This document shows, one piece after another, positions 53,118 to 58,589 of a DNA stretch of 64,000 nucleotides. Made by a program: the position numbers and the translations under genes. This stretch comes from Microcaldota archaeon (GTDB lineage Archaea > Micrarchaeota > Micrarchaeia > Micrarchaeales > Micrarchaeaceae), in NCBI GenBank assembly GCA_021818545.1, contig JAKATX010000002.1, positions 1 to 64,000 of the forward strand, in the 5' to 3' direction. The notes below the pieces were generated by a model. It ran no database searches. It had not been told where the DNA came from and was given only the letters and a program-made list of their open reading frames with translations. Every line of letters starts with the position of its first letter. Position 1 is the stretch's first letter.

Positions 53118-53150
53118 AATATCGGGAAAAAAGGAACCAATTATATATGT
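53118..53150 (+). promoter_or_regulatory. Promoter copy A (BRE/TATA-like), shared with 54490-54523
   Basis: AATATCGGGAAAAAAGGAACCAATTATATATGT. Confidence 0.65.
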
Positions 53151-53178
53151 GCTGTAGCAAAGTAAAAATAGTAGAGGT

Positions 53179-53934
53179 GTGGTTTTGGCTGAACACGAGG
53201 CAACTATTCTTGGGAAAAACAACTGGACTCCGGAGACTTTACCTTCTTTGCTTAGGCATGACGAGACTTCATTGCGAAGTGGCACGTTTGAGGTATCCAG
53301 CTTCAACGAGAAGGATGACAAGAATCTTGACGTTGTCCTACTTTCAAGTTTCGAGGAGCGCGTGGAAGATATACTTAACAACCTGCAGATACGCCATATA
53401 ACCCAGCACCATATAAACTACAGCGACAGCAATGGCAGCAAGACGTGGACAGACGAGACCGGCCAGCAGAAGCCATACATATACACGCCTGATTTCGATT
53501 TGGATAGCCCAAAGTACAACGGCAAGACCGTGATACTGGAACCGCACGGAGGCAGGTACTTCAAGGACAAGTTCTTTGATAAGATGATACGCTTCATGGA
53601 TTCTAAGGAGCACAACAGCGACTACTACCTCATAATGATAACCGAGAGGCCGGTAGAAGAGATAAACGCTATGCTCGAGAGCTATGCCAGGCGGCGCCAC
53701 ATACAAAGGAAGCTGGACGTGTCGAACATATGCGACAAGATAGTGAATACGCGGGAGAGGACGGACGATGAGATGCATAGCAGGGTCGAAACAACTGACC
53801 CGAAGGATGCCGCAAAACCGCACTGGGCCGATGCCCAGAAGGTCAGCGACGAACTCGGAGGCATGAAACGTTTTGATGACCGCGAGTTCATACGCACTCT
53901 TATAAGGCTTAAGGAAGACGACATTGTGGATTAG
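53179..53934 (+). CDS. PD-(D/E)XK-like protein, paralog A
   Basis: SSFEERVEDILNNLQ...YIYTPDFDL...KTVILEPHGG: E / PD / E-x-H motif order; homologous to 54541-55263. Confidence 0.65.
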   Translation: MVLAEHEATILGKNNWTPETLPSLLRHDETSLRSGTFEVSSFNEKDDKNLDVVLLSSFEERVEDILNNLQIRHITQHHINYSDSNGSKTWTDETGQQKPYIYTPDFDLDSPKYNGKTVILEPHGGRYFKDKFFDKMIRFMDSKEHNSDYYLIMITERPVEEINAMLESYARRRHIQRKLDVSNICDKIVNTRERTDDEMHSRVETTDPKDAAKPHWADAQKVSDELGGMKRFDDREFIRTLIRLKEDDIVD

Positions 53935-54043
53935 TCCATCCGTTGCCTAATGCGGTGCATCGCTTACTGCTTCGGTCTTGCGCGGACCGCCCAAGCAAAT
54001 GTTTATAAGAGCGCAATCAGATAACATCAATATCGGTGTCAGC

Positions 54044-54472
54044 GTGTGGTATAACATATACTGTATTGTGAAGGCTACTGCGAAGCCCAATGGCCAGCCC
54101 GGCGAGAACAAGCAATGGCATGAGCCAAAAGAGCTTGTGTACCTGATATTCAATTCATTGCGCGGCATAGAGTATGACCACAGGGGCAAGGATTCCAGCA
54201 TATTCATGGACGCTTTGGACTCCCCCGGCGGCCAGAAACTGATGGAATCGGCGAAGAAGGAGAAATTTGAGGAGGACAATGCGGAGATATACTACGAAAG
54301 CAAAGATTTCAGCGACCTCAACAGCGGGGAACACAGCTTCAGCATAGCAATAGATTCTTTTGATACGGCAGCGGCGCTAAATGACTACATAAAAGGCAAG
54401 AAAGCGGAGGAGACCATCTGGATAGCCGGAATGTACGTGCATGTGGGTGACCTGGTCCTGCCAGCGCTCTGA
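54044..54472 (+). CDS. Small protein of unknown function between the two paralogs
   Basis: ORF with TATA-like GTTTATAAG at 54001-54009; likely GTG 54044 (MWYNIYCIVKATAKPNG). Confidence 0.6.
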   Translation: MWYNIYCIVKATAKPNGQPGENKQWHEPKELVYLIFNSLRGIEYDHRGKDSSIFMDALDSPGGQKLMESAKKEKFEEDNAEIYYESKDFSDLNSGEHSFSIAIDSFDTAAALNDYIKGKKAEETIWIAGMYVHVGDLVLPAL

Positions 54473-54489
54473 TGGTTCCCCGGGCCAAG

Positions 54490-54523
54490 AATATCGTCAG
54501 GAAAAGGAACCTCTTATATATGT
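54490..54523 (+). promoter_or_regulatory. Promoter copy B (BRE/TATA-like)
   Basis: AATATCGTCAGGAAAAGGAACCTCTTATATATGT. Confidence 0.65.
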
Positions 54524-54540
54524 AACTGCATCTAATAAAA

Positions 54541-55263
54541 TTGATTGAGGGTGTAGCTGTGACTGAGGAAACGAACCCTGCTTCTACCAAGGGCCGGGAA
54601 TTTGTTGACGCTGTGTCAAAGCTTTTGAGGCAGAATACGGGCCCATCGGCCTTGGATGCTCCGGCAGAAAAAAACAATTCCTTCAACGCGGTCCTTGCAT
54701 CTAGTTTCGAGGAGCGCGTGGAAAGCATACTGAACAAGCTGCAGATGGGGTACATAGAGCAGCACCATATTCAATACCTTAACAAGCAGGACGGACGCAT
54801 GCACGTCTATACTCCAGACTTCGACCTGACAGACACCAAGTACAACGGAAAGACTGTGATACTCGAGCCGCACGGCGGCGACTACTTCAACTACGATTTC
54901 ATAAGGAAGATGAAGGCATTCATGGAGTCCAAAGAGCATGATGATTACTACCTTGTCATAATAACCGAGATGCCTGTGGAAGAGATAAAAAAGAGGCTGG
55001 CAACCACCATGGTATCCAAGCATTCCGGCCAGTACTTCAAGGACCTGGAAATTTCAGACATATGCGACAAGCTCATAAACACCAGAAAGAGGGGCTCAGA
55101 AGAGATGGCCCAGCCTTACGGGCTGCCCCCTGAGATGGCCGACAAGCCGTACGCATCAGATGCCGCAAAGTTGGCCGAAGACTTGGGCGGCATGGGTGAG
55201 TTCGACGAGCTGGAATTCATGCGCCAGCTAATCAAGTTCAAGCGCGAAGGATCAATGGATTGA
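54541..55263 (+). CDS. PD-(D/E)XK-like protein, paralog B
   Basis: SSFEERVESILNKLQ...HVYTPDFDL...KTVILEPHGG; same C-terminus pattern (DLGGM..FD..EF.R.LI). Confidence 0.65.
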   Translation: MIEGVAVTEETNPASTKGREFVDAVSKLLRQNTGPSALDAPAEKNNSFNAVLASSFEERVESILNKLQMGYIEQHHIQYLNKQDGRMHVYTPDFDLTDTKYNGKTVILEPHGGDYFNYDFIRKMKAFMESKEHDDYYLVIITEMPVEEIKKRLATTMVSKHSGQYFKDLEISDICDKLINTRKRGSEEMAQPYGLPPEMADKPYASDAAKLAEDLGGMGEFDELEFMRQLIKFKREGSMD

Positions 55264-57356: not shown

Positions 57357-58589
57357 ATGCAAGTTTTGTATCCCAAGCGATTCCATGTTTTCATGCTGTT
57401 CACTCTGATCTCAATGTCATTGCTGGGATCCTGCGTGTCATACGCATCGCCCGCCAACGCCACCCAATACACCGTAAATTCGATAAACATAGGCCTGGGA
57501 GCATATTGGTTGGCATTTTCACCTTCAGGCACGCTTGCTTACGTAACGAATCAAGGCAGTTCAAGCGTCAGCATAATAGACGTTGTTAACGGTACGCTAA
57601 TACACAGCGTAAAAGTCGGATTGTCACCTTATGGTGTGGCTTTCAGCCCTTCCGGTTCCGTGGCTTACGTCACTAATGGCGGGGGCACGGCTGTCAGCGT
57701 GATAAACACCACTACGAGCAATGTCGTTAATACCATAACGGTAGGCTCAAACCCTTCCGGCATCGCATTCTCTCCGTCAGGGAAGTTCGCCTATGTAACG
57801 AACTTCGACAGCCAGAGCGTCAGCGTGATAAATGTAACGTCCAGCAAGGTGGTAGGGACCATAGGCGTAGGCCTTAGCCCGTTTTGGATTGCGATAAACC
57901 CTTCAGGCACGCTGGCTTACGTAGTCAATTCCAACAGCAACAACGTGAGCGTGATAAGCCTGGCAGCGAACAAGGTTGTAGGGTCAATAAACGTGGGGTC
58001 CTACCCAAATTCAGTCGCTTTCTCGCCATCAGGCGCAATAGCGTACGTAACGAACAGCCGTGACAACGATGTGAGCGTCATAAACGTAAGTGAAGGCAAA
58101 GTCACTGCCACAATACAGGTAGGCGGTGCGCCCGACGCCGCCGCATTTGCCCCGTCAGGCGATTTGGCTTACGTGACTAACTGGGATGACAATGACGTGA
58201 GCGTGATAAATGTAAGTGAAGGGAAGGTGGTATCAACAATAGGCGTCGGCACCAGCCCATCGTGGATTGCGATAAACCCTTCAGGCACGCTTGCTTACAC
58301 CTCAAATTATGGCGATGGCACTGTCAGCTCAATAGTACTTGCACAGCCAAGTGTCAATGTCTCATCCACCAGCACGGTAACAACTGCGCCTACGACTACA
58401 GTGGCGCAGGCGCCTGCGGCTAATACAACCACCTCTATCGCTCCGCAGAATTCAAACTCCTCAACGCAGCCCATGCACCAAGCAGCCCAGCAAGGCGGAA
58501 GTCCGAGTTCATACCTCCTAATACTGGGTGCCGTAGTGGTTGTTATAATAGTCGCGGCCGGCTATCTCATAGTTTCCAAGAAAAAGTGA
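57357..58589 (+). CDS. Secreted/membrane-anchored YVTN-type beta-propeller protein
   Basis: Signal-like N-terminus; tandem FSPSG..AYVTN...VSVINV repeats; Thr/Ser/Ala-rich linker; C-terminal TM + KKK. Confidence 0.88.
   Translation: MQVLYPKRFHVFMLFTLISMSLLGSCVSYASPANATQYTVNSINIGLGAYWLAFSPSGTLAYVTNQGSSSVSIIDVVNGTLIHSVKVGLSPYGVAFSPSGSVAYVTNGGGTAVSVINTTTSNVVNTITVGSNPSGIAFSPSGKFAYVTNFDSQSVSVINVTSSKVVGTIGVGLSPFWIAINPSGTLAYVVNSNSNNVSVISLAANKVVGSINVGSYPNSVAFSPSGAIAYVTNSRDNDVSVINVSEGKVTATIQVGGAPDAAAFAPSGDLAYVTNWDDNDVSVINVSEGKVVSTIGVGTSPSWIAINPSGTLAYTSNYGDGTVSSIVLAQPSVNVSSTSTVTTAPTTTVAQAPAANTTTSIAPQNSNSSTQPMHQAAQQGGSPSSYLLILGAVVVVIIVAAGYLIVSKKK

Follow-up and report, generated by a model that had tools for sequence, protein, structure and literature searches.

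A Microcaldota family of putative PD-(D/E)XK nucleases related to T7 endonuclease I, with histidine at the motif III lysine position

Genes A, M and B represent a real, conserved and previously unannotated nuclease family and module. We hold it to be reasonably likely that A and B are DNA endonucleases under common regulation which depend on metal and belong to a PD-(D/E)XK family restricted to Microcaldota. This family is related to T7 endonuclease I, a phage enzyme with branched DNA as its substrate. The two are probably active enzymes, selective for DNA structure or for incoming DNA, and M would be their dedicated small partner. The genes are located in a window of 64 kb, the whole stretch of DNA analysed, which is part of the 105-kb contig G000:C7; the source assembly (G000) comprises 711 kb in 13 contigs and is about 60% complete. 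According to the records of a motif-pattern scan, close relatives of the window genome are Candidatus Micrarchaeota MAGs and Ca. Micrarchaeum sp. A_DKE, Microcaldota being the current NCBI phylum name for Micrarchaeota. A literature search returned nothing on the A/B family or on a PD-(D/E)XK family with histidine for lysine.

Results

Gene A (53179..53934, forward strand) encodes a T7-endonuclease-I-like PD-(D/E)XK protein of 251 aa, and gene B (54559..55263, forward strand) its paralog of 234 aa, counted from GTG 54559. Gene M (54044..54472, forward strand) starts with GTG and specifies a 142-aa acidic protein (pI 4.85) in which no known domain was found. All three open reading frames lie where an earlier note on this DNA had placed them, and the paralogy it had claimed is evident: A and B are 46% identical and have every block listed there in common, namely SSFEERVE.IL, YTPDFDL, KYNGKTVILEPHGG, DYYL..ITE.PVEEI and ICDK..NTR. 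Residues E59, P104-D105 and E121-P-H123 of A align with E57, P92-D93 and E109-P-H111 of B, where the B numbering counts from TTG 54541 at the opening of the frame and not from GTG 54559. The start of B is nonetheless most likely GTG 54559 (VTEETN...) rather than this TTG, since B orthologs begin at the matching codon. In an alignment of six upstream regions, conservation is confined to the promoter element and the first codons. Moreover, A, M and B are all under purifying selection: dN amounts to 0.17-0.37 versus a dS that exceeds 1.1 or is saturated (for gene A, dN is about 0.2 and dS above 1), with dN/dS of about 0.12-0.2 where dS is unsaturated. Thus, all three are selected proteins.

The promoters of A and B are duplicated, as had been proposed. 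The 21-mer AAAGGAACCnnTTATATATGT is present at 53130-53150 and 54503-54523, both on the forward strand, as AAAGGAACC-AA-TTATATATGT ahead of A, a BRE/TATA-like element with a specific GGAACC part, and as AAAGGAACC-TC-TTATATATGT ahead of B. No third match occurs in the window at up to three mismatches (0.02 expected in shuffles), and the same two sites are the sole matches in the 711-kb assembly, where at 60% completeness a further site is possible. Two better relatives, G006 and G036 (92-96% complete), gave the same result: the element AAAGGRAYCnnTTATATATGT precedes A and B in all three genomes, and G036 has matches at the A and B promoters only, G006 at these and at one weak site. This third, weaker copy (L177, G006:C9:26229-26249, three mismatches) is located between small open reading frames and may mark another co-regulated gene or be due to chance. 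M has instead its own TATA-like box (TTTATAA, about 54002-54008, forward strand), as the earlier note had it, which differs from the A and B promoters and lacks the shared element. A sigma-70 promoter scan found nothing, the model being irrelevant for archaea.

The three-gene arrangement recurs, with an identical A-M-B order in G006 and G036, making three genomes together with that of the window; homologs are hence found together. M remains without a recognised domain, in agreement with the original description: Pfam, PDB sequence and fold searches gave no match, and the M model is poor (pLDDT 60). Homologs of M were found beside nucleases of the same clade only, save one weak match, and the M-linked nucleases constitute one clade in the tree (support 98/90). 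In G054, from another family, an M homolog of 35% identity lies directly upstream of the one nuclease that clusters with A and B, the same gene order as M-B.

The neighbours named in the earlier note were correctly identified: the RFC large subunit (NCBIfam E = 7e-82), a TIGR00375 PHP protein, which we take to be the EndoQ family, and Nth, through a HhH-GPD glycosylase match. As a clue to function we rejected this neighbourhood as weak, because the neighbours differ among relatives; the left neighbour in G006 is an enolase-like gene, and G077, of the same genus, possesses Nth-EndoQ with the module absent there and a distant nuclease elsewhere in the genome. Outside the genus, family members mostly sit among unrelated housekeeping genes in heterogeneous contexts. 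The window also encodes a YVTN-type repeat (beta-propeller-like) protein at 57357-58589, with an apparent signal peptide and a C-terminal membrane segment, which adjoins Nth in G036 too.

With B alone as query, a search of the phylum recovered relatives in 56 genomes, and a profile search placed the family in 80 of 303 Microcaldota genomes (35 of the 97 good ones), nearly all members belonging to two families of one order. The motif-pattern scan across 85,462 species genomes, with a narrow pattern from a narrower alignment than the full 23-member set, yielded matches in Microcaldota only, although some record titles say Marsarchaeota. Members are as little as 20-30% identical to one another, and yet the residues PDF and EPH do not vary freely. 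Among 71 aligned members, the motif I glutamate (E57) is kept in 69, PD in all 71, the motif III glutamate (E109) in 70 and a basic residue in the next helix (K/R123) in 67. The histidine in place of the usual lysine, first pointed out for A and B only, is a conserved feature of the family: the 89 members with a readable motif III have His (83), Lys (4), Asn (1) or Gln (1) at this position. In the tree, whose deep branches are weak, the lysine-bearing group from genus g13 falls within histidine-bearing members, and its lysine thus looks like a reversion. Two family members lie side by side in G011 (L145, G011:C1:936998-938030), and two family matches fall inside one 647-aa open frame in G215 (L150, G215:C8). 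A protein of 900-940 aa is encoded directly upstream of a family member at three loci in two genera (L043:4653-7379, L049:3833-6649 and a relative in L055), one of these having a metallophosphatase domain.

Searched against the PDB, the family profile has T7 endonuclease I structures as its sole significant relatives (1m0d, E = 3.9e-7 over motif I to PD), a specific relation that the earlier note had missed. PF05367 matches 15 of 23 members, weakly (best E 2e-5), and B remains below the curated cut-off (13.8 versus 29.1 bits; A is not listed), while the endonuclease family phrog_945 matches 17 of 23. The nearest phage matches, distant at E of about 1, are mostly annotated endonucleases, one of them T7-like; in two phage endonucleases, the T7-like one included, E/D/E/K align onto E57/D93/E109/H111. 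PADLOC and NCBIfam gave no meaningful match to the nucleases, and scattered weak ones were treated as chance.

Motifs, profile and predicted secondary structure agree with the PD-(D/E)XK fold that had been suggested, and a restriction-endonuclease-like core is predicted. The AlphaFold model of B has a core pLDDT of about 92, with helices at 55-66, 118-129 and 131-135 and strands at 77-80, 87-90, 94-101, 104-111 and 136-142. Foldseek, run on B as the earlier note had advised, placed members of the superfamily on top: in the PDB weakly (E 0.009 at best) Can2, the Cas4-like SSO0001, NucS/EndoMS and RecE, and among viral structures 11 matches below 0.001, including endonuclease I, a head-completion nuclease, TnsA and DUF559 proteins. 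Where named, the matches are mostly PD-(D/E)XK nucleases; the TM-scores are low, about 0.3, and the case for the fold is therefore made jointly by motifs, profile and secondary structure.

Hjc is encoded in 254 of 303 genomes and 94 of 97 good ones, family carriers included, and in the window assembly as a separate gene (G000:C7:76740-77006). We thus rejected the family as an Hjc replacement; it is accessory rather than a housekeeping resolvase. Viral origin or carriage was likewise rejected, as three queries of viral contigs found no relatives and the phage matches are distant.

Discussion

The reading that we prefer may be outlined as follows. E57, D93 and E109 would bind Mg2+, and H111, perhaps aided by the conserved basic residue at 123 in the following helix, would take over the role of the motif III lysine. 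Migration of this lysine to the next helix has been suggested for other PD-(D/E)XK families, and superfamily variants without it exist (PMC1913061). With the in-place histidine and the next-helix basic residue both conserved, either or both may serve. The enzymes may act as dimers, whether A/A, B/B or A/B. They could assist Hjc by cutting DNA that is branched or non-canonical in some other way, or that enters the cell, a substrate assignment that we infer from the relatives alone. M would be a small dedicated partner, either a regulator or a specificity subunit.

Because the catalytic lysine is absent, activity of A and B is not assured. They might be catalytically dead descendants of a T7-endonuclease-I-like nuclease, in which the exchange of lysine for histidine ended cleavage and which now bind branched or incoming DNA, congruent with the 85 of 89 members that lack the lysine of motif III and with known inactivated PD-(D/E)XK domains in which nucleic-acid binding is retained (PMC1189080). 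However, the metal-binding residues are near invariant among members of such low identity, which is unusual in a dead enzyme, and this triad argues for an active metal-dependent nuclease. Neither is the histidine freely exchanged, with the lysine-bearing g13 group nested among histidine members, and the next helix, the proposed destination of the lysine in other families (PMC1913061), retains a basic residue. We consequently regard a dead enzyme as quite unlikely. The family could also be the nuclease partner of DNA traffic, processing DNA that is moved by a CedB/VirB4/HerA-like translocase while it is taken up, passed to or from the host or other cells, or processed at its ends. The CedB/CedD/VirB4/HerA-like translocase family is present in 149 of 303 Microcaldota genomes, sometimes beside the nuclease (examples at L047:7915-9618, L053:7686-9494 and L040:4889-6595). 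Of the 66 genomes that carry both a family member and a CedB-like ATPase (NCBIfam CedB 6e-20), 9 have the two genes no more than about 2 kb apart, compared to about 0.6 expected randomly; G054 with its M-linked nuclease is one of the 9. In Ca. Micrarchaeum sp. A_DKE (L067), an ATPase of this kind adjoins the nuclease gene. Nevertheless, this ATPase was chosen for counting after the neighbourhoods had been inspected, the linked genomes, from three genera, probably reflect two or three independent events, most family members are unlinked to it, and no close homolog was found in the genus of the window. The linkage is a lead, and the explanation built on it is in our eyes doubtful.

The earlier note had proposed a DNA-processing, repair or defence module. 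PADLOC models gave no match to A, B or M up to E 0.1. A defence or selfish module, with A/B restrained or directed by M as in a toxin-antitoxin or restriction pair, is compatible with the patchy spread (80 of 303 genomes), the empty site in G077, and a small acidic partner gene along with co-regulation. Yet we deem it quite unlikely: beyond stray single-member matches PADLOC is silent, methyltransferase or mobile genes were not recognised beside the module, and relatives were found neither in viral contigs nor, for M, in plasmids. Moreover, part of the genus retains the module stably, and M, flanked by a nuclease gene on either side, is served by a promoter of its own. Finally, a Microcaldota lineage of active PD-(D/E)XH nucleases may be envisaged, with histidine doing the work of lysine and A/B as a co-expressed heteromer that is steered by M and used on DNA entering or exchanged by host-dependent cells, a combination that we consider unlikely.

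PD-(D/E)XK is among the largest nuclease superfamilies, and the lysine of motif III is one of its hallmarks. About 90 natural proteins with a near-invariant histidine, and a few nested lysine-bearing members, offer a clean test of the replacement of lysine by histidine. In addition, little is known about how ultra-small archaea handle their DNA, and these organisms gain a previously unannotated nuclease family, together with the regulatory element and the partner gene that are dedicated to it.

Compared to known systems, the family belongs to the same superfamily as Hjc (PF01870), with possible overlap in substrate, but has no Pfam match to Hjc, which nearly all of these genomes, that of the window included, encode separately. 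NucS/EndoMS and Can2, the best PDB matches in Foldseek, have the PD-(D/E)XK core in common with it, at weak scores (E 0.009-0.03); there is however no significant sequence match, and neither a CARF nor a NucS N-terminal domain was recognised in the family. Weak sequence and fold matches also connect it to the group of TnsA, the T4 gp4 head-completion nuclease and DUF559 (PMC1189080), from which it differs in motif III and in lacking a transposition or phage structural context. From T7 endonuclease I (PF05367; 1m0d, 2pfj, 1fzr) the family is set apart by the histidine for the catalytic lysine, by scores below the Pfam cut-off, by longer proteins whose N-terminus is unstructured and whose C-terminus is extended, and by being archaeal and chromosomal. 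The two nevertheless have in common motif I S-x-(L/F)-E, the spacing, Y-T-P-D-F, and a hydrophobic strand followed by E-x-(K/H)-G, with a lysine in the following helix.
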